Position numbers and translations under genes: made by a program. 64,000 nucleotides of DNA from contig NZ_CP068393.1 of the NCBI RefSeq assembly GCF_018128945.1, forward strand, positions 2,852,001-2,916,000, written 5' to 3'. The stretch comes from Aristaeella hokkaidonensis (GTDB taxonomy: Bacteria; Bacillota; Clostridia; Christensenellales; Aristaeellaceae). Numbering within the stretch: the stretch's first letter is position 1; every line of letters starts with the position of its first letter. Below the pieces are notes generated by a model that did no database searches, had not been told where the DNA came from, and worked only from the letters and a program-made list of their open reading frames with translations. Below, piece by piece: positions 2,319-58,790 of the stretch.

Positions 2319-4097
2319 ATGAAAAGGCTGATCGGGTTTGTTCTGTTTCTGACGGCACTCTGCGTTTTTTTCTCAGCCTATGCAGTTGAAAGCGGTTCAA
2401 ATGACCACCTGACCTGGACGTTGGATGCGAATGGAACCCTGACCATCAACGGCACAGGAGACATGGACTTAATATTCAGCAGAAATGCAGAGATCAAAAC
2501 AGTTGTGATCGGGAAAGGGATTACCAGGATTAGTAATCCCGCATTCTATTGCTGTGAGAATCTCAGCAGCATATCGTTTCCGGACGGTATGAAAGAGATT
2601 GGCAATTACGCATGTTACGGATGTACAAAACTGACAGGCGTCACATTGCCGGACAGCCTGACCGTTATTGGTATATCCGCCTTTAGCTACTGCCCCGGAA
2701 TGACCAGCATCTCCCTTCCGGACCAGGTGAAGTCTGTTGGGAGTGATGCCTTTGGCAGTATGATGGTTTATGCCCGGATCGGTACGGACGGTGCAAAAGC
2801 GCTGGGGAAGGCGGGCATGGCTTTCTGCGTCCCGGGTGGAAACTGCCAGCTGAGATACAGATATCAGGGTGATCAGCTGCTGGATCTGGAAATAACGGCT
2901 GCGAACAACGGCGTAACAAAACTGGTGATTCCGAATGGCGTTACCAGGATTGCAGCTTACGCGTTTTCAGGCAACAGCACCCTGACCAATGTTGTGCTTC
3001 CTGAAAGCGTCAAAAGTATCGAAAAGGGAGCGTTCTATCGTTGGAACGGACACCTTGTGTTTATGGGAGACGCCCCGGTCATTGATGCGGAAGCCTTCTA
3101 TGGCGGATCCATTGTGGCTGTCTATCCATATGCCCGTTACGGATGGGATACAACGGTTAAGAATAGTTTCGCGGCTAGTTGGATCTACTGGCAGCAAGAC
3201 AAGCTGACCGGTTTGCAGTACATTAATGGAAAGTTCTATTACTTTAACGACCAGGGGGTCAAGCAAACCGGCTGGATCAAGAATAATACGACCTGGTATT
3301 ATGCTATGGCAGACGGCGTTCTGTGCGATAACGGATGGACAAAGATTGAAGGAAACTGGTATTATTTCCATCCAACCGGCGCAATGGCAGTGGGATGGCT
3401 TTCTGTCGGCGGCGTTAACTATTATCTGAATGAGTCCGGCGTAATGCAGACCGGCTGGGTTCAGACCGGCGGCAAGTGGTATTACATGAATGCCAGCGGC
3501 GCTATGCAGACCGGCTGGGTTCAGTCCGGCGGCGCATGGTACTATCTGGACAAAAATGGTGTGATGCAGACCGGCTGGATCAAGGATGGCAAAAAGTGGT
3601 ACTACCTGAGCCAGAGTGGTGCAATGCAGATCGGCTGGGTTCAGGACGGCGACAGATGGTATTATATGAATGCCAGCGGCGCTATGCAGACAGGCTGGGT
3701 TCAGTCCGGCGGCGCATGGTATTATCTGGATTCCAGCGGCGTGATGAAGACCGGCTGGGTGAAAGACGGCGGAAAATGGTACTATTTGAGCACGGGCGGT
3801 TCGATGCAGACGGGCCTGGTCCAGGTAGACGGTTCCCGGTATTATCTCGGTGCAGGCGGCGCGATGCAGACCGGCTGGACGCAGATTGGAGGCAGCTGGT
3901 ATCATTTTGATGATTCCGGCAGAATGACAACTGGATGGTTTGAAGACCGGGCAGCGGAAGCAAAGCAGAAGAAAAACGGGCTGTGGTACTGGTTCGATGA
4001 ACAGGGCAGGATGGCCACAGGATGGAAAGAAATAAACGGGAAATGGGAAATGTTCGGGGATAACGGCCTTTGGCAGTATACATGGAACGGACAGTAA
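2319..4097 (+). CDS. Secreted BspA-like LRR protein with CW-binding repeats
   Basis: A 592-residue exported surface protein. The start at 2319 has ACGGAGGG 7-8 bases upstream and gives a signal peptide (MKRLIGFVLFLTALCVFF, cleavage near AYA). Residues about 30-270 are BspA-type leucine-rich repeats with the pattern LxxIxFPDGMKEIGxxAF, a module used for adhesion to proteins or cells. From about 290 to the end there are some 14 CW-binding units of about 20 residues (GWxxxxGxWYYxxxxGxMQT), the choline/glucan-binding type that holds proteins on the cell wall or on polysaccharide. No catalytic domain is visible. A DNA segment of about 180 bases inside the repeat tract is nearly duplicated (around 3486-3549 and 3666-3729). 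It lies between sugar-nucleotide genes, so a role at the polysaccharide surface is plausible. Confidence 0.85.
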   Translation: MKRLIGFVLFLTALCVFFSAYAVESGSNDHLTWTLDANGTLTINGTGDMDLIFSRNAEIKTVVIGKGITRISNPAFYCCENLSSISFPDGMKEIGNYACYGCTKLTGVTLPDSLTVIGISAFSYCPGMTSISLPDQVKSVGSDAFGSMMVYARIGTDGAKALGKAGMAFCVPGGNCQLRYRYQGDQLLDLEITAANNGVTKLVIPNGVTRIAAYAFSGNSTLTNVVLPESVKSIEKGAFYRWNGHLVFMGDAPVIDAEAFYGGSIVAVYPYARYGWDTTVKNSFAASWIYWQQDKLTGLQYINGKFYYFNDQGVKQTGWIKNNTTWYYAMADGVLCDNGWTKIEGNWYYFHPTGAMAVGWLSVGGVNYYLNESGVMQTGWVQTGGKWYYMNASGAMQTGWVQSGGAWYYLDKNGVMQTGWIKDGKKWYYLSQSGAMQIGWVQDGDRWYYMNASGAMQTGWVQSGGAWYYLDSSGVMKTGWVKDGGKWYYLSTGGSMQTGLVQVDGSRYYLGAGGAMQTGWTQIGGSWYHFDDSGRMTTGWFEDRAAEAKQKKNGLWYWFDEQGRMATGWKEINGKWEMFGDNGLWQYTWNGQ

Positions 4098-5913: not shown

Positions 5914-7119
5914 ATGAGAAAAGTTATACCGGTAATCCTTGTGACTGTTGCTTTGATATTGATCTTTTCGGCAGCAGCTGCGGAAGACTGGCAGAATGAA
6001 GCCCGGAGTATGCTGACGCTGATAAATGAATTCCGGACAGGAGACAACGCCTGGTACTGGAACAGGAATAACCGGACTACGACAGTAGAGACGGGCTTGT
6101 CCAGCCTGGTGTACGATTATCAGCTGGAAGAGATCGCAAAGATCCGGGCTGCAGAGATTGCTCAAAGCTTCAGTCACACCCGCCCGGACGGAAGAAAATG
6201 GGACACTGCATTTCCGGCAGGCAACTACTATAAAGGTGAAAATCTGGCCTGCGGCTTTGAATCGGCGGCTGACGCCTTTGAGGGCTTTCGGGAAGAAAAC
6301 GAAAACTACGACGGACAAGGGCACCGGCGGAATATGCTGCGCAGGCAGTTTACCCGGATCGGTCTTGCGGCAGTGGAGGTTGACGGTACCGTTTACTGGG
6401 TGCAGGAGTTCGCGTCGGGGAATGCGGTCAGTGCTGCACTGGCCAATGCACAGATCAGCTGGGCGATTGAGGATGGGAAGTACGTCTGTAGAGATGCTGA
6501 CGGAAACCCGGTTACCGGCTGGATACAGGATAAAGGCGCCTGGTATTATATGAACCAGAGCGGCGTAATGCAGACCGGCTGGGTGCTGGATAACGGTTCC
6601 TGGTATTATATGAATCAAAGCGGCGCGATGCAGACGGGCTGGATCCAGACTGGCGGCACCTGGTATCATATGGATCCAAGCGGTGCAATGCGGACCGGAT
6701 GGATCCGGGATGGCGGTTCATGGTACTACCTGGATCCGGACGGCGTGATGCAGACCGGATGGATCAAAGACAGAGGAAAGTGGTATTACTCCAACAGCAA
6801 GGGAGTCATGCAGACCGGCTGGGTGCAGGATGACGGGAAGTGGTACCATTTCGGCAAAAACGGAATGATGGACACCGGATGGATCAAAGACAAAGGGAAA
6901 TGGTATTACTGCGAGGATTCCGGCGCAATGGTGACCGGCCGCTGTACAGTGGACGGGCAGACGGAAGTTTTTGACGCATATGGAATCTGGCAGTACAGTG
7001 AGATCAATGACTATGATACACCGCTTGGCACTAGTTCATGGATCTTACTGATCCGGTCAATTCGGCAGTACTTCAGAGAGTTTTTGGAGCTTATGAGTAT
7101 TCCTGGAGAAGTGTTGTAA
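5914..7119 (+). CDS. Secreted CAP/SCP-domain protein with CW-binding repeats
   Basis: A 401-residue exported protein. Residues 1-23 form a signal peptide ending SAAAAE. Residues about 30-170 are a CAP (SCP/PR-1, YkwD-type) domain: HTRPDGRKWDTAF, GENLACGF and GHRRNMLRRQFTRIGLAAV are its usual motifs, with the cavity His and Glu residues present. About nine CW-binding units follow (residues about 180-355). Bacterial CAP proteins are common in sporulating and gut Firmicutes but their activity is mostly unknown. The protein does not stop after the usual GIWQYS ending; about 37 extra residues with a hydrophobic patch (SSWILLIRSIRQYFREF) follow, which may come from recombination in the repeats. It is 71 bases after rfbB. 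Confidence 0.83.
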   Translation: MRKVIPVILVTVALILIFSAAAAEDWQNEARSMLTLINEFRTGDNAWYWNRNNRTTTVETGLSSLVYDYQLEEIAKIRAAEIAQSFSHTRPDGRKWDTAFPAGNYYKGENLACGFESAADAFEGFREENENYDGQGHRRNMLRRQFTRIGLAAVEVDGTVYWVQEFASGNAVSAALANAQISWAIEDGKYVCRDADGNPVTGWIQDKGAWYYMNQSGVMQTGWVLDNGSWYYMNQSGAMQTGWIQTGGTWYHMDPSGAMRTGWIRDGGSWYYLDPDGVMQTGWIKDRGKWYYSNSKGVMQTGWVQDDGKWYHFGKNGMMDTGWIKDKGKWYYCEDSGAMVTGRCTVDGQTEVFDAYGIWQYSEINDYDTPLGTSSWILLIRSIRQYFREFLELMSIPGEVL

Positions 7120-11569: not shown

Positions 11570-11573
11570 AATT

Positions 11574-11601
11574 CAGAATTCAGAATTAAGAATTCAGAAC
11601 T
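11574..11601 (+). repeat. Four-unit heptad array (CAGAATT type)
   Basis: Units CAGAATT, CAGAATT, AAGAATT, CAGAACT, 28 bases, directly after rlmH and 31 bases before the barnase gene. Confidence 0.85.
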
Positions 11602-15595: not shown

Positions 15596-16438
15596 ATGTC
15601 TGAATGCACGCACGATTGCTCCAGCTGCGGGGCGGATTGCGCATCCCGCAATAAGCCGGAAAGCCTGCTGGAAGCACAGAACGCGTTCAGCAATGTAAAA
15701 AAAGTGATTGCTGTGGTAAGCGGCAAGGGCGGCGTGGGTAAGAGCCTGGTTACCAGCCTGCTGGCTGTGCTGACCAGGCGCAACGGCCACAGCACCGCGG
15801 TGCTGGACGCTGATATCACGGGCCCGTCCATCCCGAAGATTTTTGGTATCCGCGAAAAGGCGATGGGTACGGAAGACGGGATCCTGCCGGTGGAAAGCCG
15901 CACGGGCGTAAAGCTAATGAGCGTGAACCTGCTGCTGGAAAACGATACGGATCCGGTGATCTGGCGCGGCGCGCTGATCGCGGGAACGGTGAAGCAGTTC
16001 TGGACCGACGTCCTCTGGGGCGATGTGGACTTCATGTTTGTGGATATGCCTCCGGGAACCGGTGACGTTCCGCTGACAGTGTTCCAGAGCCTGCCGGTGG
16101 ACGGTATCATTATCGTGACCAGCCCCCAGGAACTGGTTGGCATGATCGTGGAAAAGGCCGCCAAGATGGCGAAGATGATGAACATTCCGGTGCTGGGCCT
16201 GGTGGAAAACATGAGCTGGATCGGCTGCCCGGACTGCGGAAAGAAGATCTTCCCCTTCGGCGAAAGCCAGACCGCGAAGGTGGCGCTTGAAGAGGGTATC
16301 CCGCTGCTGGCTCAGCTGCCTATTGATCCGGCGGTGGCCAAGGAATGCGATACCGGCGTGATCGAGCTGTTCAATGAAGACTGGATGGATCCGGTCATCA
16401 GCGCAGTGGAGAACTGTCCAAAACGAATTCAGAATTAA
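15596..16438 (+). CDS. Mrp/NBP35-family P-loop ATPase (Fe-S carrier)
   Basis: Cytosolic ATPase that builds or delivers iron-sulfur clusters. Residues 4-15 hold four cysteines (CTHDCSSCGADC), residues about 42-49 the deviant Walker A GKGGVGKS, and a CxxC pair lies near the C-terminus (GCPDCGKK), which bridges the cluster in this family. 280 residues is normal. GAGGTGA is 7 bases before the ATG. The last residues (IQN) and the TAA stop are encoded by the heptad repeat that begins at 16430, so the gene end has been reshaped by the repeat. Confidence 0.93.
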   Translation: MSECTHDCSSCGADCASRNKPESLLEAQNAFSNVKKVIAVVSGKGGVGKSLVTSLLAVLTRRNGHSTAVLDADITGPSIPKIFGIREKAMGTEDGILPVESRTGVKLMSVNLLLENDTDPVIWRGALIAGTVKQFWTDVLWGDVDFMFVDMPPGTGDVPLTVFQSLPVDGIIIVTSPQELVGMIVEKAAKMAKMMNIPVLGLVENMSWIGCPDCGKKIFPFGESQTAKVALEEGIPLLAQLPIDPAVAKECDTGVIELFNEDWMDPVISAVENCPKRIQN

Positions 16439-16457
16439 GAATTCAGAATTCAGAATT
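16430..16457 (+). repeat. Four-unit heptad array (CAGAATT type) over the mrp stop codon
   Basis: Units CAGAATT, AAGAATT, CAGAATT, CAGAATT. The first unit and part of the second encode the last residues and the TAA of the Mrp gene. Confidence 0.88.
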
Positions 16458-16539
16458 ATATCCGGTAGTTACAGGACGTGAATACGTCAGATTGACGGTG
16501 TTCTGACAGATTTACAGAACGAAGTCAGTATCCGGAATT

Positions 16540-16574
16540 ATGAATTATGAATTATGAATTGTGAATTATGAATT
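16540..16574 (+). repeat. Five-unit heptad array (ATGAATT type)
   Basis: Units ATGAATT three times, GTGAATT, ATGAATT, just before the DUF5711-like gene. Confidence 0.85.
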
Positions 16575-16592: not shown

Positions 16593-17786
16593 ATGGCAAG
16601 AGGGAACCAGAACATTAACGACCAGCTGTTCCGGACACGCGGCAGAAACGCTGCGGAAAGCCGGGAAAGCCAGGAGGAGATCCGGCGGCGGCAGATTCGC
16701 AGCTGGATTATCCTGGTGAGCGTTGCGCTGGCTGTGGTGCTGGGAATTCATTTTCTGGGCCGGTACGGTAAGGGCAAAGAGATCAGTATGGCCAAGCTGC
16801 CCTGTTACGCAAACCAGAACGTGACGCCCTTCCGGGACGGACTCGTCTACTATGACGGCGTGTCCATCCATCACCTGTCTTCCTCCGGAACGATCCGCTG
16901 GAGTTTTCCGGCGGGAAGCGACGTGAAGTTTACTGTCGGACCGACGCACATGGCGATCTGGTCCGGTACGCAGCTGTTCCTGGTGGATAAAAACGGAAAC
17001 GCGACCTATAACGAGAGTATGGAAGCCAAGGTTCAGCTCGCCCGGGTGGGTGAACGGTTTGCCGCGGTGGTTATAGGTGAGGAAGATACAGAACCGAAAC
17101 TGATCGTGAAGGACCTGAAGGGCGCCCAGGTGGACCAGGAACAGGAAGCCTACAGCGGCCTGATGATCCTGGATGCCGGATTCTACGGAGAACAGGGTGA
17201 ATACCTGTGGACGCTGGCACTGGACGTGTTCGGTACCGCACCGAATACGGTGATGAACACCTTCCAGGTCGGTAAGATGAATTACCGGGAGGTTTCCCTG
17301 GGTGAATCCCTGACCTATAAGGTGATTTATGAGAACGCCCGGCTGCGGGTGTTTACCACCCAGCAGGTGTACACCTATGACTACAAGGGCACACAGGACA
17401 CAAACAGCACGATGCTGGTATACGGATGGAAGCTGATTGACGCGGACATTCCGGAACGCGGACGTGCCAAGCTGCTGCTTGCTCCGACCAGCCAGACTTC
17501 CAGCGCGCAGCTGATTTCTGAACTGCGAGTACTGGAAGGCATGAATGACAAGCGGTACACGCTGCCGACCTCCTGCGTAGGCGCAAGCATCCACAAGGGG
17601 AACATCTACGCGATTTCCGAAGATTATATCTACCGGGCGGACATGTCCAGTCAGCGGTTCTTCGGATATCAGATTCCCGCGCCGGAAGGGGTTAAAATCA
17701 CCGCTTTCTACGGAATCACGGATGACGGCCGGATGCTGCTGGCCTCGGGTGAAACCATGTACTCACTGACCTTACCTGAAAGGTAA
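16593..17786 (+). CDS. Membrane-anchored beta-propeller protein, DUF5711-like
   Basis: A 397-residue protein with a charged cytoplasmic N-terminus, one transmembrane helix at about residues 36-55 (SWIILVSVALAVVLGIHFLG) and a large extracellular part with repeating strands typical of a propeller (FRDGLVYYDGVSIHHLSSSG, then LFLVDKNGNATYNESM). This layout fits the DUF5711 group of clostridial proteins, whose function is unknown. GAACGAGGA lies before the ATG. It shares the one-helix-plus-propeller plan with the much larger protein at 47341-50628, but the sequences are not obviously related. Heptad arrays flank it on both sides. Confidence 0.72.
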   Translation: MARGNQNINDQLFRTRGRNAAESRESQEEIRRRQIRSWIILVSVALAVVLGIHFLGRYGKGKEISMAKLPCYANQNVTPFRDGLVYYDGVSIHHLSSSGTIRWSFPAGSDVKFTVGPTHMAIWSGTQLFLVDKNGNATYNESMEAKVQLARVGERFAAVVIGEEDTEPKLIVKDLKGAQVDQEQEAYSGLMILDAGFYGEQGEYLWTLALDVFGTAPNTVMNTFQVGKMNYREVSLGESLTYKVIYENARLRVFTTQQVYTYDYKGTQDTNSTMLVYGWKLIDADIPERGRAKLLLAPTSQTSSAQLISELRVLEGMNDKRYTLPTSCVGASIHKGNIYAISEDYIYRADMSSQRFFGYQIPAPEGVKITAFYGITDDGRMLLASGETMYSLTLPER

Positions 17787-17796
17787 AAAACGAATT

Positions 17797-17824
17797 CAGG
17801 ATTCAGAATTAAGAATTCAGAATT
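17797..17824 (+). repeat. Four-unit heptad array, left arm of the S23 composite
   Basis: Units CAGGATT, CAGAATT, AAGAATT, CAGAATT. It is matched by an inverted array at 18208-18235 on the far side of the S23-type gene. Confidence 0.88.
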
Positions 17825-17843
17825 AAAGGTTATGGAGGTGACG

Positions 17844-18206
17844 ATGAAAGATAGCAATCCGGTTGTTCAGAAGAGCAAGGCTTTTGCTATCAGAATTATT
17901 CGTCTCTACCAGCACCTGACAGTAGAAAAGAAAGAGTTTATCCTTTCAAAGCAGGTGCTTAGAAGTGGTACAAGCATTGGCGCAAACATCAGAGAAAGCA
18001 TAAGAGCCCAGAGCACAGCTGACTTCCTGGCCAAGATGCAGATTTCACTTAAGGAAGCGGATGAAACACAGTATTGGTTGGAGTTGTTGAGGGAAACGGA
18101 TTATATTTCCGGTAAGGCAGCAGATAGTCTGATTGCTGATTGTGAAGAGATCATTCGATTGGTTGCAGCGATCGTAAAAACCTCGAAGGAGAATCAGCAA
18201 CAGTAA
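17844..18206 (+). CDS. Four-helix-bundle protein, S23 / 23S rRNA intervening-sequence family
   Basis: A 120-residue protein rich in helix: KSKAFAIRIIRLYQHL, then LSKQVLRSGTSIGANIRES and FLAKMQISLKEADETQYWL, which is the conserved core of the S23/IVP family (related in fold to Avd of diversity-generating retroelements). These proteins were first found encoded inside intervening sequences of 23S rRNA; their function is unknown. GGAGG lies 5 bases before the ATG at 17844, which is preferred over the ATG at 17832 inside that ribosome site. The gene lies between two heptad arrays in inverted orientation, and its base composition is more AT-rich than its neighbours, both suggesting it arrived as a unit. 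Confidence 0.87.
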   Translation: MKDSNPVVQKSKAFAIRIIRLYQHLTVEKKEFILSKQVLRSGTSIGANIRESIRAQSTADFLAKMQISLKEADETQYWLELLRETDYISGKAADSLIADCEEIIRLVAAIVKTSKENQQQ

Positions 18207-18207
18207 T

Positions 18208-18235
18208 AATTCTGAATTCTGAATTCTTAATTCTG
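18208..18235 (-). repeat. Four-unit heptad array in reverse orientation, right arm of the S23 composite
   Basis: Plus strand reads AATTCTG, AATTCTG, AATTCTT, AATTCTG; on the minus strand this is the same unit order as the array at 16430. It starts one base after the S23 stop. Confidence 0.88.
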
Positions 18236-18308
18236 AATTATTACAAATACCGGGTTGGGAATGGCAGTATAATACAGTTGGGAATCCAACATTTGGAGGC
18301 GTTCAATC

Positions 18309-19337
18309 ATGACGATCTACGTTGACGCGATGGGCGGAGACCTGGCACCGGAAGCACCGGTAAAAGGCGCACTGAGAGCACTGCGGCAGTATCCGCATCT
18401 GACCATCATCCTGGCGGGCAAGCTGGATGAAGTCAAGCCTTTCCTGGGCGACTATGAAGACGTGAAGGACCGGCTGATCCTGGAGGAAGAGCCGGAAGTG
18501 ATTACGAATCACGAGAGCCCGGTGATGGGTGTGCGCAAGAAGGTCAACAGCGCCACCGTACAGGGGATGCTGAAGGTGCGCAGCGGCGAAGCGGACGGCT
18601 TTGTATCCGCCGGCTCCACCGGTGCGACGCTGGCCGGCGGTATGTTCCGCCTGGGCCGGATTCCCGGTATTGAACGACCTGCCCTGGCGCCGCTGATGCC
18701 CAACGGACGGGGCCATTTCCTGCTGATTGACTGCGGCGCCAATGTGGACTGCAAGCCGGAATACCTGGTGCAGTTCGGTATCATGGGCGACGCTTATATG
18801 CGGGGCGTGATGGGAATGAAGAATCCCCGGATCGGCCTGGTGAACATCGGTGCGGAGGCTGAAAAAGGCAATAAGCTGGTGAAGGAAACCTATCCGCTGA
18901 TGGAAAAGGCTCCCTACAACTTCATCGGCAACGTGGAAGCCCGGGACGTTCCGCTGGATCAGGCGGATGTGTGCGTAACGGACGGCTTCGGCGGCAACCT
19001 GATCCTGAAGTATACCGAAGGCCTGGCCAGCGCACTGCTGGGTACCATCAAACATGAACTGATGGCGGATACCCGCGGCAAGATTGCCGGACTGATCGCA
19101 AAGCCAGCCTTTAAGCGGGTGAAAAAGACAATGAGCTCCGACGAAATCGGCGGCGCTCCGCTGCTGGGTGTCCAGGGCGCGGTGATCAAGGCGCACGGAT
19201 CCAGCAATGACTACGCATTTTGCAGCGCTATCAGCCAGTGCGTGAAGATGATTGACGGCAACGTCGTGAAGATCATCGAGGAAGGCGTAGCAAAGATGCT
19301 GGCTGCTGAAAGCGAAGCAGCTTCCAGTGAAGAATAA
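18309..19337 (+). CDS. plsX: Phosphate acyltransferase PlsX
   Basis: Makes acyl-phosphate from acyl-ACP for phosphatidic acid synthesis, working with PlsY at the membrane. The start MTIYVDAMGGDLAP, the SAGSTGATLAGG loop and the C-terminal GGAPLLGVQGAVIKAHG are family hallmarks. 342 residues is standard. TTGGAGGCG stands before the ATG. acpP and rnc follow within 62 and 13 bases, the usual lipid-synthesis cluster, here without fabD/fabG between them. A TATAAT at 18268-18273 is a possible -10 but has no clear partner. Confidence 0.97.
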   Translation: MTIYVDAMGGDLAPEAPVKGALRALRQYPHLTIILAGKLDEVKPFLGDYEDVKDRLILEEEPEVITNHESPVMGVRKKVNSATVQGMLKVRSGEADGFVSAGSTGATLAGGMFRLGRIPGIERPALAPLMPNGRGHFLLIDCGANVDCKPEYLVQFGIMGDAYMRGVMGMKNPRIGLVNIGAEAEKGNKLVKETYPLMEKAPYNFIGNVEARDVPLDQADVCVTDGFGGNLILKYTEGLASALLGTIKHELMADTRGKIAGLIAKPAFKRVKKTMSSDEIGGAPLLGVQGAVIKAHGSSNDYAFCSAISQCVKMIDGNVVKIIEEGVAKMLAAESEAASSEE

Positions 19338-19643: not shown

Positions 19644-20300
19644 ATGCTTGATCAGGTAATGAAAGCCCTGGGGTACACATTCCGCGACGAAGCATTGCTT
19701 CGCCGCGCTTTGACGCACCCGTCCATGGGGAAAAACGACAACCAGCGGCTTGAATTTCTGGGAGACGCGGTGCTCCAGTACCTGATGAGCGACGCGCTGT
19801 ATCAGGCTCATCCGGATGAGCGGGAAGGCGCGCTGACCCACCGGCGGGCGCTGCTGGTCTGTGAAGCGGCATTGAGCCCCATTGCGAAAAAGCTGGGGCT
19901 GGGTGAGGCGCTGATCATGGACCGGGGCGAAGAACTGACCGGCGGCAGGGAAAAACCGAGCGTACTGTGCGACACCATGGAGGCAGTACTGGCCGCAGTC
20001 TATCTGGACGGCGGCATGGAAGCTGCCCGCGGTGTTGTGGAACGCTGCTGGCCGGAAGAGGGAGAAGTTTCCCGTCCGCTGCAGGATGCCAAGGGCGCCC
20101 TGCAGGAAGTCCTTCAGAAAGACGGGGGAGACGCTCCGACCTACGAGATTACCGGCCAGAGCGGCCCGCCCCATGCACCGGTGTTCCGTGCCACGGTATA
20201 CCGGTATGGGAAAGCACTGGCTGAAGGTGAGGGTAAAACCAAAAAGCAGGCGGAACAAGCCGCAGCGCTGGCTGCGCTGCAGCAAATTCAGAATTCATAA
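19644..20300 (+). CDS. rnc: Ribonuclease III
   Basis: Double-strand-specific endoribonuclease for rRNA and mRNA processing. The catalytic signature [13 protein letters not shown] is at residues about 34-46, and the double-stranded-RNA-binding domain occupies about 150-215 ([30 protein letters not shown]). 218 residues is slightly short. The last residues IQNS and the stop are encoded by a heptad repeat, so the native end may have been replaced. Confidence 0.95.
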
Positions 20301-20316
20301 TTCACAATTCACAATT
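20289..20316 (+). repeat. Four-unit heptad array over the rnc stop codon
   Basis: Units CAGAATT, CATAATT, CACAATT, CACAATT. The TAA of rnc (20298-20300) lies in the second unit. Confidence 0.85.
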
Positions 20317-20381: not shown

Positions 20382-20409
20382 GATCATTATGAATTATGAA
20401 TTAGAAATT
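20382..20409 (+). repeat. Degenerate four-unit heptad array before the GH51 gene
   Basis: Units GATCATT, ATGAATT, ATGAATT, AGAAATT, ending just before the ribosome site of the GH51 gene. Confidence 0.55.
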
Positions 20410-20427
20410 ACCGGAGGTAATTGGTTG

Positions 20428-21891: not shown

Positions 21892-22166
21892 TAAGACCCT
21901 GCAGATGCCTGATCGGCGAAATGCCCGATGAGGCCGAATTGGCTGAGATTATCCGGGAACGGATTGAGACGATCCCGGAGGAAGAGCGTACCCCTGAAAA
22001 GGAGTACGCTTTTCGTCTTTCCCGGTGCAGGGAGTGTGAGAGCCTGCAGCGGGGTACCTGCGGAAAGTGCGGCTGCTACGTGGAGATCCGGGCAGCGAGG
22101 AAATGGCAGGGGTGTCCTGATGTGCCTGCACAGTGGCAGGCATATCAGGACATAATGAATAATTAA
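21888..22166 (+). CDS. Small Cys-rich protein, DUF6171-like
   Basis: A 92-residue protein with seven cysteines in metal-site spacing: PCRCL near the N-terminus, then [20 protein letters not shown] and [11 protein letters not shown]. This pattern (CRxCLxxxMD, then CRxCxxLxxGxCxxCGCxVxxRAA) is that of the DUF6171 group of Firmicutes, of unknown function; zinc binding is the likely role of the cysteines. The GTG start at 21888 overlaps the GH51 stop, so it is translated from the same message. The last residues (MNN) and the TAA lie in a heptad repeat. Confidence 0.75.
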
Positions 22167-22187
22167 AACTTAAGACTTAAAACTTAA
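22153..22187 (+). repeat. Five-unit heptad array (ACTTAA type)
   Basis: Units TAATGAA, TAATTAA, AACTTAA, GACTTAA, AACTTAA. It contains the stop of the preceding Cys-rich gene. A closely similar array sits at 24667-24701, after the large PG-binding gene. Confidence 0.75.
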
Positions 22188-22193
22188 AAATGT

Positions 22194-24655: not shown

Positions 24656-24667
24656 TTCATCTTTTGT
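24640..24667 (+). repeat. Perfect 12-bp inverted repeat spanning the PG-binding gene stop codon
   Basis: ACAAAAGATGAA (24640-24651) pairs with TTCATCTTTTGT (24656-24667); the TAA stop (24653-24655) sits in the loop. Confidence 0.8.
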
Positions 24668-24701
24668 AATGAATAATGAATACTTAAAACTTAAAACTTA
24701 A
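24667..24701 (+). repeat. Five-unit heptad array (ACTTAA type)
   Basis: Units TAATGAA, TAATGAA, TACTTAA, AACTTAA, AACTTAA, the same family and order type as 22153-22187. Confidence 0.75.
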
Positions 24702-24717
24702 GAATACTATATAGTTA

Positions 24718-27249: not shown

Positions 27250-27825
27250 ATGGTAAAGACGTTACTCATTGTCGGCCTGGGAAATCCGGGGGAGAAGTAT
27301 GCCCACACCCGCCATAACGCGGGCTATGAGGTGATGAGCCGGCTGGAAGAATATTATGGCGTGAAACTGCGCAAAAAGCTGTTTGTACAGGACATGATCG
27401 CGGAAGTGACGGACGGAGAAACCAAGATTGTGCTGTGCGAGCCGCTGACCTTCATGAACCGGAGCGGGGAATGTGTGAAGCGCCTGTTGAACCGTTTCAA
27501 GGTGCCGCAGGAGAATCTGCTGGTGATCTATGACGATATCGACCTGCCTCCGGGAAAGGTACGGGTGCGCAAGAACGGCGGCCCCGGAACGCATAACGGA
27601 ATGCGGAGTATCGCATCCTGCCTTGGAAAGACGGATTTCCCGCGGATCCGGGTAGGAACGGGCGACCGGCCGGCGGGTCAGGATCTGGCAGCCTGGGTGC
27701 TTGGACACTGGAGCGCAGAAGACAAAGAAAAGATGGAAGCGGCCTTTGATAAGGCGGCGGAATCCGCGCGCCTATGGGTAAAGGAAGGCATTGATAAAGC
27801 GATGCAAAAAGGCAACAGTAATTAA
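27250..27825 (+). CDS. pth: Peptidyl-tRNA hydrolase
   Basis: Releases tRNA from stalled peptidyl-tRNA. 191 residues. The catalytic His is in GNPGEKYAHTRHNAGYE, with the usual Asn in TFMNRSG and Asp in YDDIDLPPGK. The ATG at 27250 has GGAGAA 7 bases upstream. Gene order pth-mfd is typical of Firmicutes. The stop is directly followed by a heptad array. Confidence 0.97.
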   Translation: MVKTLLIVGLGNPGEKYAHTRHNAGYEVMSRLEEYYGVKLRKKLFVQDMIAEVTDGETKIVLCEPLTFMNRSGECVKRLLNRFKVPQENLLVIYDDIDLPPGKVRVRKNGGPGTHNGMRSIASCLGKTDFPRIRVGTGDRPAGQDLAAWVLGHWSAEDKEKMEAAFDKAAESARLWVKEGIDKAMQKGNSN

Positions 27826-27827
27826 TT

Positions 27828-27855
27828 CAGAATTCAGAATTAAGAATTCAGAATT
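27828..27855 (+). repeat. Four-unit heptad array between pth and mfd
   Basis: Units CAGAATT, CAGAATT, AAGAATT, CAGAATT. Confidence 0.88.
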
Positions 27856-32017: not shown

Positions 32018-32959
32018 ATGACTGAAGGAATGGAGTACCGGGTTGCATCCGATGGACGCCGGCTGGACGTATTGCTGAGTGAAGCAACAGGACTCAGCAG
32101 GAGCCGGGTGGCTTCGCTGATGGAAGACGGCTTGTGCGTTTCCGGCGGAAAGGCTTGCACAAAGGCCGGCACTAAGCTGCCTGCGGGCCAGGAGATTGTC
32201 CTGACAGTGCCCGCACCGAAGGAAGCTGTTCCGAAGGCGGAGGATATTCCGCTGGAAATCCTGTATGAGGATGAGGACCTGGCCGTGGTGATCAAGCCAC
32301 GGGGCATGGTAGTGCATCCGGCGGCAGGACATCCGGACGGAACGCTGGTGAACGCATTGCTGGCCCGTCTGGATTCACTGGGCGGCATCGGCGGCGAACT
32401 GCGCCCTGGGATTGTTCATCGGCTGGATAAGGAAACCAGCGGCCTGATGCTGGTAGCGAAGAATGATGAAACCCAGGAAGAACTGAGCCGGATGCTGAAA
32501 GACCGGGAGATCGAGAAACATTACCGGGCTCTGGTAGAGGGCCGGTTCAAGGAACCGGAAGGTGAAATCAACGCGGCTATTGACCGGAGCAAGAAAGACC
32601 GGAAGAAGATGGCTGTTGATCCGGAAGGCCGACCGGCCCTGACCCGCTGGAAAGTACTGGCGGAAGGACAGGCCTGCACGCTGCTGGACGTGCACATCCT
32701 GACCGGGCGGACGCATCAGATCCGCGTCCACATGCGGAGCATCCAGCATCCGGTCTGCGGAGACGAACTTTATGGCTTTGAAAAAGGTGTGAAGGTACCG
32801 TGCCTCATGCTCCATGCCTACAGCCTGAGGTTTAAACATCCCCGGACAAAAGAAGAAATGGCCTTCCAGGCTCCTCTGCCGGAGGACTTCCTGAAAGGCC
32901 TCAAGAGCAATGGGATCGAGATTAATTCAGAATTCAGAATTCATAATTCAGAATTATAA
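32018..32959 (+). CDS. RluA/RluD-family pseudouridine synthase
   Basis: Converts uridine to pseudouridine in rRNA. 313 residues: an S4 RNA-binding domain at about 8-60 (RRLDVLLSEATGLSRSRVASL) and the catalytic domain with the active Asp in HRLDKETSGLMLVAK; HILTGRTHQIRVHM is another family motif. It follows lspA as in many Firmicutes. The last 12 residues (INSEFRIHNSEL) are encoded by a heptad repeat, a clear case of the repeat changing a protein end. Confidence 0.93.
   Translation: MTEGMEYRVASDGRRLDVLLSEATGLSRSRVASLMEDGLCVSGGKACTKAGTKLPAGQEIVLTVPAPKEAVPKAEDIPLEILYEDEDLAVVIKPRGMVVHPAAGHPDGTLVNALLARLDSLGGIGGELRPGIVHRLDKETSGLMLVAKNDETQEELSRMLKDREIEKHYRALVEGRFKEPEGEINAAIDRSKKDRKKMAVDPEGRPALTRWKVLAEGQACTLLDVHILTGRTHQIRVHMRSIQHPVCGDELYGFEKGVKVPCLMLHAYSLRFKHPRTKEEMAFQAPLPEDFLKGLKSNGIEINSEFRIHNSEL
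32928..32955 (+). repeat. Four-unit heptad array inside the 3' end of the pseudouridine synthase gene
   Basis: Units CAGAATT, CAGAATT, CATAATT, CAGAATT; it is read through in frame up to the TAA at 32957-32959. Confidence 0.88.
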
Positions 32960-33968: not shown

Positions 33969-33991
33969 TCCAGGCACCCCCATATTCAATT

Positions 33992-34019
33992 CAGAATTCA
34001 TAATTCAGAATTCAGAATT
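33992..34019 (+). repeat. Four-unit heptad array upstream of rfbD
   Basis: Units CAGAATT, CATAATT, CAGAATT, CAGAATT, in the rfbD 5' leader (antisense to rfbD). Confidence 0.88.
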
Positions 34020-35520: not shown

Positions 35521-35544
35521 AGGGCAAACCTCCAAATACTAATT

Positions 35545-35572
35545 CAGAATTCAGAATTCAGAATTCAGAATG
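35545..35572 (+). repeat. Four-unit heptad array upstream of lysC
   Basis: Units CAGAATT three times, then CAGAATG. The rest of 35573-35794 holds no gene; it includes GCTCAGGATAACGAA, related to a CTCAGGATGAC stretch at about 34063-34073 on the other side of lysC, and an isolated GAATTCGGAATTC. Confidence 0.85.
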
Positions 35573-38742: not shown

Positions 38743-38928
38743 AAGAATTTATAATTCACAAATCATAATTATATATTTTACCCAAACGACTTATGGTTGT
38801 TTGGGAACACACAGCGTGTGTGTACCGTTGTTTCAAGGAGGGCTGTTTTTCGAAACATCCAGCCTCTGTTCAGGGAAGCCCTGAAGGTTATGAAACAGAT
38901 AATTCTGAATTCTGATTTCTGAATCCTG
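38743..38928. repeat. Composite: forward heptad array, structured spacer, reverse heptad array
   Basis: Left array 38743-38770 (AAGAATT, TATAATT, CACAAAT, CATAATT) and right array 38901-38928 in reverse (AATTCTG, AATTCTG, ATTTCTG, AATCCTG). Between them are hairpins CCCAAAC/GTTTGGG (38781-38805), ACACACA/TGTGTGT with loop GCG (38807-38823), GGCTG/CAGCC (38841-38864) and TTCAGGG/CCCTGAA with loop AAG (38869-38885). No reading frame of note. The rest of 38731-39040 is the promoter region of the next gene. Confidence 0.7.
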
Positions 38929-38967
38929 AATTGTCATATCGCCTGATTCTACCATACAAAACTTCTA

Positions 38968-46117: not shown

Positions 46118-46122
46118 CAATT

Positions 46123-46284
46123 CATAATTCATAATTCACAATTCATAATTATATAATGGTTAGCACTGAAAACTCGTTAACAATAATATATGTGCCCGGC
46201 GGAATCTAAAGCCAGGCAGCATCTGTGTGGAGAGCGTTTTTCGCCGGCACACATTTAATTCTGAATTCTGAATTCTTAATTCTT
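46123..46284. repeat. Composite: forward heptad array, spacer, reverse heptad array
   Basis: Left array 46123-46150 (CATAATT, CATAATT, CACAATT, CATAATT), right array 46257-46284 in reverse (AATTCTG, AATTCTG, AATTCTT, AATTCTT). The 106-base spacer contains a long imperfect stem between about 46190 (ATGTGCCCGGCGGA) and about 46254 (TCGCCGGCACACAT). No reading frame. Confidence 0.7.
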
Positions 46285-46286
46285 AA

Positions 46287-47159
46287 TTATACAAAGCTCT
46301 CATCCCGGTTGAACAACGGAATAAAGTCCCGGTCGGCGGAATCCGGTTCCTGCAGGAAACCGGGAAGATCCAGGGCGATCATATGATCGCGGACACGGCT
46401 GTACTCCTTTTCCGTTATACGCCGGTCAAGTCCGGGAACGGATACGTCGTTGCAAGGGATATACTGGCGCATGAGGCTGACAGGAACGCCGGCGGGGAGT
46501 TCATCCCGAACCCAGGTGAGCAGGCGCAGGCTTTCCGAAGTGAAACCCGGCAGGATCAGGTGGCGGACCAGGGTGCCCCGGAGCATGATGCCGTTTTCAT
46601 CATAAACGGGAGCACCGGTCTGGCGGCACATTTCCTTAATCGCGGCGGAGGTGACAGCAAAATAGTCCGGTGCCGCGGCGCACAGCCGTCCGGCACGGGC
46701 GGAGAAATGCTTCAGATCCGGAAGGTATACGTCAATGACTCCTTCGAGACGGCGGAGGGTATCCACGGTTTCATAGCCGGAGGTATTCCATACCAGGGGC
46801 AGAGGCGGGTGCCAGAGTTCCAGCGCCTCCAGGATCCGGGGAACAAAAGGGGTGCCTGTGATGAAGGACAGGGTGTGGACGCCCAGGTCCGTCAGGCGCT
46901 TCAGAGCGTCTGAAAGCTCCCGCGGGGTAAAAGGGCGGCCCTCATTCCGGTGGGAGATATCCCCGTTCTGGCAGTAGACGCAGCGGAGCGTGCAGCCGGA
47001 GAAAAAGACAGCGCCGGTTCCGTGGCTGCCGGATATGGGTGGTTCTTCCCACAGATGCGGGGCAATACGGGCAATAAGAATCTCCTCGCCGAGGCCGCAG
47101 AAGCCCGGCTGAAGGGAACGGTCAGCACCGCATTGACGAGGACAAAGTGTACATTTCAT
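46287..47159 (-). CDS. Radical SAM protein, PflX / PflA-like
   Basis: A 290-residue radical SAM enzyme. The cluster motif is CTLRCVYCQN (C-x3-C-x2-C). The N-terminus has four extra cysteines (CTLCPRQCG, GFCG), as in the PflX group of pyruvate-formate-lyase-activase homologues, whose targets are unknown. The start is placed at the ATG beginning MKCTLCPRQC; upstream in-frame codons have no ribosome site and no homology. It is monocistronic here and converges on the division cluster. Confidence 0.87.
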   Translation of the reverse strand: MKCTLCPRQCGADRSLQPGFCGLGEEILIARIAPHLWEEPPISGSHGTGAVFFSGCTLRCVYCQNGDISHRNEGRPFTPRELSDALKRLTDLGVHTLSFITGTPFVPRILEALELWHPPLPLVWNTSGYETVDTLRRLEGVIDVYLPDLKHFSARAGRLCAAAPDYFAVTSAAIKEMCRQTGAPVYDENGIMLRGTLVRHLILPGFTSESLRLLTWVRDELPAGVPVSLMRQYIPCNDVSVPGLDRRITEKEYSRVRDHMIALDLPGFLQEPDSADRDFIPLFNRDESFV

Positions 47160-58639: not shown

Positions 58640-58658
58640 ACGTTTCGCAACTTAATAC

Positions 58659-58769
58659 CTTATCACGAGTGACCGAAGGACGGGCCTGATGACGTCACGG
58701 CAACCGGCGAAAAGCAAGGTGCCAAATCCCGCAGCGTGCACACCCCACAGGGAGGCGCTGACAGATAAG
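58659..58769 (+). ncRNA. SAM-I (S-box) riboswitch
   Basis: The aptamer starts CTTATC and closes with GATAAG (P1). Inside it has the S-box core: ACGAGTGACCGAAGGA, GGGCCTGATGA, CGGCAACC and AAGGTGCCAAATCC. It lies upstream of metK, the classical S-box target, and binds S-adenosylmethionine, the product of metK, to shut the gene off. Confidence 0.96.
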
Positions 58770-58790
58770 GACGGTCAATAAGATCGAATC

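Follow-up and report, generated by a model that had tools for sequence, protein, structure and literature searches.

What is an S23 gene doing between two inverted copies of a short repeat, amid protein-coding genes? The gene in question lies in the window that we analyzed, a 64-kb stretch (G000:C1:2852001-2916000) of the single-contig, 3.39 Mb genome of Aristaeella hokkaidonensis (G000). It is enclosed by an array of seven-nucleotide units (heptads) and by an inverted copy of that array.

The S23 gene and its inverted arrays

17794-17824, + strand: left heptad array of the S23 element (sequence inspection)
17844-18206, + strand: S23/IVP gene, intact, 120 amino acids (alternative start at 17832)
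18208-18239, - strand: right heptad array, inverted, with five AATT motifs (sequence inspection)

A Pfam profile search matched the open reading frame at 17832-18206 (+) to PF05635 (23S_rRNA_IVP, or S23; 100 bits, E = 1.1e-28, cut-off 33.8). It is the sole ORF of at least 50 amino acids on the + strand between the two arrays. The start codon at 17844 is preceded by GGAGGTGACG, which gives the gene a Shine-Dalgarno sequence, and starting there yields 120 amino acids, the same length as the closest homologues. The PF05635 match and our reading of the arrays confirm a first-pass annotation, made from the DNA letters, which had described a four-helix-bundle gene of the S23/IVP type enclosed by a forward and a reverse heptad array. 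The arrays had been placed at 17797-17824 and 18208-18235; the forward and inverted pair is real, and both members are slightly longer than that. The base-for-base match upon inversion is also present, and it covers 24 contiguous bases instead of 22. As had been noted, a single base separates the S23 stop codon from the right array. The whole element (array, S23 gene, and inverted array; 17794-18239) is about 450 bp long.

In the predicted RNA fold, the arrays close a 25-bp stem around the S23 gene (z = -5.16; 0 of 100 shuffled sequences were equally stable), so the suggested stem enclosing the whole gene is predicted at the RNA level. To the right lies plsX (18309-19337; Pfam FA_synthesis), and the ORF to the left (16593-17786) has no Pfam match. 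An RNA family scan found no rRNA family anywhere in the 64-kb window, which agrees with the earlier description of the neighbors as unrelated to rRNA.

An AlphaFold2 model of the protein (pLDDT 94.8) most resembles 2rld and 2gsc, so we predict that it has the four-helix-bundle fold of these two solved S23 proteins; Avd was less close, and families outside the fold-search list are not counted as excluded. Both 2rld and 2gsc contain five chains, and the PDB entries of S23 structures are titled as hypothetical proteins or proteins of unknown function. The S23 protein of X. campestris is a homopentamer with a toroidal structure, according to the passages of PMC4990558 on S23. The dN/dS ratio of S23 was 0.03-0.12 in 10 of 12 pairs (the other two were saturated), and therefore the protein does something. 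S23 is not known to have a catalytic domain, a point against the role that we propose for it below.

Heptad arrays accompany S23 genes across phyla

Do other S23 genes have such arrays? Within this genome, where the first-pass annotation had proposed to look, the answer is mixed: of the four S23 matches, two are flanked by arrays on both sides, a fragment has a single array, which belongs to another class, and L003 lacks arrays. Across 45 genomes of the genus, arrays were found in all nine genomes with an S23 match over the cut-off (5 to 425 matches) and in 5 of the 36 others (48, 12, 11, 1, and 1 matches; Fisher p = 2.3e-6, without phylogenetic correction). One of those five counts against our proposal: G036 has 48 array matches and no S23 was found in it, at a genome completeness of 85%. 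Among 24 S23 loci from the genus (a weak match and a fragment included), 19 have a near array, by which we mean one within 300 bp, and 11 have arrays on both sides. The units fall into classes by S23 group (AATTCAG/AATTCAT, AATGCAT, AGAGTGA, CCTACTT, and AAAACTT). Thus, the idea that the arrays are this genome's own repeat was too narrow, as other S23 groups have heptad arrays of different sequence.

In a sample of the phylum, 36 of 199 genomes had an S23 match (32 over the cut-off). Near arrays were present at 21 of 29 loci from this phylum set and on both sides at 11; searches at periods of 5, 6, 8, and 9 found none. We also considered the best 80 of at least 415 confirmed relatives from species genomes, which come from Bacteroidota, Clostridia and other Firmicutes, Treponema, Lentisphaeria, Rubritalea, Thermoguttaceae, Fibrobacter, Campylobacterales, Desulfohalobiaceae, Ignavibacteriae, and others. 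(L100 and L008 look like the same locus, and contig ends shorten some flanks.) Period-7 arrays lie within 300 bp of 70 of these 80 genes and on both sides of 46. By period, there were 134 near arrays at 7 nucleotides, none at 4, 5, 8, 9, 10, or 12, three at 6, one each at 11 and 13, and eight at 14, which is a harmonic. When genes were placed at random (1000 trials, with loci too short for placement scored as zero), the mean number of loci with a near array was 8.7 and the maximum was 17, versus the observed 70. A scan of viral contigs gave one S23 locus.

The inversion is also general. In 42 of 46 cases, the upstream unit resembles the downstream one more closely in inverted than in direct orientation (the exceptions are L111, L124, L132, and L153), and the mean inverted similarity is 0.764 for a gene's own pair of arrays versus 0.584 for shuffled partners (maximum 0.616 in 100 shuffles). 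Furthermore, the similarity of units tracks the similarity of the S23 proteins across 105 loci (Mantel r = 0.570; 0 of 999 permutations). In genome-wide counts for 12 chosen S23 genomes, TAGCT arrays numbered 107+153 in G131, 10+14 in G153, and 0 to 2 in the other ten, and TTCGA arrays numbered 15+14 in G160, 2 in G200, and 0 in the other ten. (The reversed TTCGA control had 43 matches in G131, as its sequence, AGCTT, is part of G131's own unit.)

Some S23 loci have no near array (10 of the 80 species-genome loci, 8 of the 29 phylum loci, and 5 of the 24 genus loci), and we weigh these against our proposal. We also noticed S23 proteins with a longer N-terminus (IKDFK.L..WQKA) at L078, L090, and L094, and none of the three has a near array; these proteins may have another role. 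Overall, we are practically certain of the association between S23 and the arrays and of the anatomy of the element.

The commonest array has five motifs

Among the 136 near arrays of the 80 loci, 65 are 31-33 bp long, 11 are 24-26 bp, and 6 are 38-40 bp. The commonest length is 32 bp (36 arrays), which corresponds to five motifs. Similarly, 44 of 60 arrays in sampled G000 stretches plus the window are 31-33 bp (some of these stretches were chosen because the pattern search had already shown arrays there), as are 55 of 85 arrays in a region that is syntenic among five genomes. In G131, 9 of the 17 listed left arms have five TAGCT motifs under a strict pattern. The peak is blunter in the phylum set, with 12 of 33 arrays at 32-34 bp, which counts against our proposal.

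The 32-bp arrays of the five-genome syntenic region contain 160 motifs, of which 138 read AATT; most of the 3-nt spacers are CAG, CAT, AAG, or CAC. This division, with four positions fixed and three free, applies to the window's class and is not clean across phyla, another point on the debit side.

Could the arrays be ordinary slippage microsatellites that lie near S23 by chance? The number of units does differ at some sites, and long arrays occur, the longest in the 80 loci being 145 bp. However, this is contradicted by the restriction to period 7, the proximity to S23, and the inversion. Slippage alone would not be expected to give a peak at 32 bp, and the lengths do not form a falling curve. 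We consider this explanation very improbable. We infer that there are five motifs for five subunits.

Arrays without genes

A pattern of four AATT motifs at 7-bp steps has 412 matches in G000 versus 14 for a reversed control (overlapping matches inside one array are counted apart), and therefore the array pattern is more than chance. The arrays of G000 occur singly or as inverted pairs; the arms of most pairs are separated by 70-140 bp and enclose no gene. Those in the window are:

11570-11599, + strand: solo array at site A (occupied by an S23 element in G001 and G027)
16425-16457, + strand: left arm of a gene-less inverted pair
16535-16574, - strand: right arm of the 16425 pair, whose core is different in G006, G001, and G027
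20285-20316, + strand: left arm of a gene-less inverted pair
20386-20410, - strand: right arm of the 20285 pair
27824-27855, + strand: solo array with fewer units at the same place in G031, G001, and G027
32924-32955, + strand: solo array
33988-34019, + strand: solo array
35541-35571, + strand: solo array
38901-38932, - strand: solo array, degenerate
46119-46150, + strand: left arm of a gene-less inverted pair that is absent in this form or place from G031 and G001
46257-46288, - strand: right arm of the 46119 pair

The gene-less cores of G000 are not one family, which counts against our proposal: only 4 of 120 core pairs score at least 30, one of these being a doubly listed core, and the other three share another dispersed repeat, as judged by eye. 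In favor of our proposal, 10 of 105 pairs of gene-less cores in G131 are related versus 0 of 105 flank pairs (with a doubly listed core dropped).

Other features of the window and of related loci deserve mention. Arrays of a second heptad class, ACTTAAA, lie at 22161-22192 and 24667-24706 of the window and resemble the arrays adjacent to two S23 genes, L010 and L015, from G006 and G021; we saw no intact S23 gene of this class in the G000 genome. A palindromic repeat, CGACT..GCTCGGGATGACA, recurs upstream of plsX in L044 and L037 and in the G000 cores in L204, L209, L217, and L005. In L044 and L037 it adjoins a small ORF, which we take to resemble a GIY-YIG nuclease, and the repeat and ORF are perhaps another gene-plus-repeat element. 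At the place of the solo array at 32922 of the window, G031 has about 16 kb and G001 has 7.8 kb of other DNA. The window also contains 60-bp coding repeats of a repeat-rich protein (3407-3878 and 6514-6910) and a SAM riboswitch (58657-58771).

The orientation of arrays tracks the chromosome arm, with 31 to 1 on one arm and 3 to 17 on the other; these counts cover the region up to 2.95 Mb (100 of the 124 matches), with arm limits set after inspection of the data. In a mixed stretch at 2.15-2.72 Mb, the ratio is 13 to 11. Orientation broadly matches GC skew. There are exceptions: the skew is negative at 2.70 Mb, just before a run of + arrays, and at 400 kb, within the + arm. An orientation set by gene strand was not supported: solo arrays between co-directional genes are sense in 7 cases and antisense in 11. 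(Gene strands for this count are approximate, from a simple gene caller; a cruder caller served for array pairing only.)

S23 units inside structured RNA genes

The first-pass annotation had likened the element to rRNA intervening sequences (IVSs). In support of this, S23 copies within 23S rRNA genes elsewhere also have heptad arrays at their ends. According to Rfam matches, five of the S23 matches at the 29 phylum loci are inside 23S rRNA (L082, L087, L091, L095, and L099). A further six S23 copies from G098, G157, G220, and G141 are inside 23S rRNA; L184, the seventh, matches L183. When the threshold was loosened, each of the seven had a heptad array near at least one side, and L195 and L197 had arrays on both sides. 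Identical copies within each of these four genomes are not proof of transposition, as they are copies of rRNA operons. At L186 of G220 (2153-2238), an inverted heptad pair separates the two pieces of a broken S23 frame inside 23S rRNA. We presume that the 23S-borne copies in this analysis are placed in helix 45 and other named helices. Helix 45 is given as an IVS site in the passages of PMC4990558 that deal with IVSs.

Other RNA genes are also involved. Two S23 matches from the phylum set (L089 and L092, of G090 and G163) are inside RNase P RNA genes, and the interrupted genes span 775 bp for an Rfam model of 367 positions. The S23 gene at L098 adjoins tmRNA. And in one rRNA operon of G160, we found a gene-less TTCGA pair in the 16S gene, another in the 23S gene, and, also in the 23S gene, an S23 element whose reading frame contains a stop. 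The pair in the 16S gene was seen again in two further operon pieces.

Presence and absence in close relatives

At the site of the window's element (site B), the element is present in G000 and in G031, where it is frameshifted; intact copies exist. With the same neighbors, G006 has one heptad and no gene, and G027, G005, and G020 have neither. At site A, 6 kb away, G001 and G027 have a related element (79 and 84% DNA identity); this site has a solo array in G000 and no array in G006 or G031. Constant presence of the gene in the same place among relatives had been named as a finding that would speak against a mobile cassette, and this is not what we see. At 16425-16574, all five compared genomes have an inverted pair, and the core in G000 and G031 differs from the core in G006, G001, and G027. 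At a site adjacent to a tRNA gene, the upstream flanks of G000 and G006 are 97.6% identical, and their S23 genes belong to two different groups.

Inheritance in place is common as well. At three further sites in the genus, S23 is present in five, six, and four genomes (at the second of these sites, one genome matched over just 237 bp), and 19 of the 24 genus loci are at sites common to other genomes. Therefore, these loci are not independent, and we count the frequent inheritance in place against our proposal. As for the suggested mobile cassette, then, site presence does differ among relatives, the movement itself is deduced from comparing them, and a number of the genus's S23 sites are kept in place.

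Was the element gained at site B or lost from G006? Upstream flank identity is 97.1% for G000-G031, 96.0% for G006-G031, and 94.9% for G000-G006, and on the plsX side the values are 95.8, 94.9, and 95.4%, respectively. Flank identities on both sides do not settle the polarity. G006 keeps one heptad at the site and no clean target-site duplication is readable there, which also weighs against our proposal.

We considered that S23 might be a regulator instead of a mobilizer: the pentamer would bind five-motif arrays in transcripts or DNA and control its own gene and other genes with arrays, and the arrays would spread slowly by recombination. This would suit arrays that adjoin gene ends, an S23 gene that is under purifying selection and often inherited in place, and solo arrays that stay in place across genomes. 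However, movement fits better with the gene-less pairs in 16S and 23S rRNA, with the different cores at one site in close relatives, and with a related element at a new site, and the lack of a preferred sense among co-directional solo arrays also disfavors regulation. We think this explanation is unlikely.

Alternatively, the arrays and S23 might be passengers, and S23 would only process or protect RNA. The agent that moves them would then be a Y1 transposase, a reverse transcriptase, or simply recombination between arrays. The long RNA stem of inverted arrays does resemble the RNase III substrate of IVSs as presented in the IVS passages of PMC4990558, and Y1 transposase genes are present in 6 of the 9 S23 genomes of the genus. 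But they are equally common in genomes without S23 (22 of 36; p = 1.0), so we reject Y1/RAYT as the driver. As Avd shares the fold, we also considered a resident canonical reverse transcriptase as a needed partner; this was rejected, as no RVT_1 match at E = 1e-3 was seen in 7 of the 9 S23 genomes, G000 among them. Nor would either agent account for the tracking of unit class with the S23 protein. We consider the passenger explanation quite unlikely.

A proposed role for S23

On balance, we favor the view that the stretch 17794-18239 is a small mobile element in its coding form, and that an S23 pentamer binds its inverted five-motif ends. The gene-less inverted pairs, the solo arrays, and the rRNA IVSs would be other states of the same kind of unit. 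We propose that the pentamer, a torus of five four-helix bundles, binds a single-stranded array with one subunit per motif. Such binding would explain why five motifs are frequent, why the step is fixed at 7 nt, and why the unit can have any sequence. By holding both ends, S23 would allow the element, or other DNA between two arrays, to be copied or moved. Insertion would be at intergenic sites and at the tips of RNA hairpins. Host enzymes would do the chemistry. The copying or moving would probably occur at the replication fork: the arm-linked orientation, together with the commonness of five motifs, points to single-stranded DNA at the fork, or a transcript, as what the pentamer may hold.

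The steps of this proposal differ in strength. We think it likely that S23 binds the arrays, and we give roughly even chances that it moves arrays or elements; coupling to replication is likewise proposed. More tentatively, and with slightly less than even confidence, we suggest that S23 elements are a distinct class of mobile elements that crosses phyla, whose sole protein is a non-enzymatic pentamer that counts five motifs per inverted end. These elements would be the source of the IVSs in rRNA and RNase P RNA and of many intergenic heptamer repeats; the unit would drift with the protein while the period and count stay fixed, and insertion would be coupled to replication.

The link between S23 and heptads ties a gene family to common, unexplained seven-letter repeats of bacteria, and both become testable. 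It would also account for the nature of rRNA IVSs and for the inversion of their ends, and it extends the known locations of such units to RNase P RNA and 16S rRNA genes. If S23 moves the arrays, then this would be a mobile element without a known catalytic domain of its own.

Comparison with known systems

With the 23S rRNA IVS of Coxiella burnetii, as described in the relevant passages of PMC4990558, the window's element has in common an S23 ORF, inverted stem-forming ends, and its size (428 nt versus about 450 bp here). However, the window's element lies between protein genes and not inside 23S rRNA, and since there is no rRNA match in the window, we do not file it as an IVS. Those passages mention a few tandem heptameric repeats before the S23 ORF and cite an earlier idea that the ORF of the IVS served mobility; they concern one species and do not present heptads as general, inverted, or dispersed.

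The intergenic heptamer repeats of the SPADE survey (PMC6344855) and the TAACTGA repeats (PMC4679880) are also tandem 7-bp intergenic units, found in many phyla. The term S23 is absent from the main text of both papers. On function, these texts either state that there is no known one or speculate about a binding protein, and PMC4679880 suggests that the repeat-binding protein might be the mobile element. In the open PMC literature, which leaves out most subscription papers, we found no paper that connects S23 genes as a whole with heptamer arrays; the Coxiella IVS paper comes nearest.

Like a DNA transposon or MITE, the S23 element has terminal inverted repeats. The window's S23 protein is predicted to have an Avd-like fold, as in the Avd of diversity-generating retroelements (4dwl and 8ub7; 9-10% identity). 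But the reverse transcriptase of those retroelements is absent from G000, in that there was no RVT_1 match.

In REP/RAYT systems, a gene lies between inverted copies of a dispersed short repeat, and gene-less pairs and single copies occur elsewhere. The S23 element has this layout, except that the gene is S23, with no Y1 transposase between the repeats, and the heptad arrays do not track Y1. For the proposed mode of binding, we looked to TRAP, a ring protein that reads evenly spaced triplets, one per subunit. We take its fold to be unrelated to that of S23. By analogy, TRAP provides a model for putative binding in which S23 would read evenly spaced short motifs, one per subunit.
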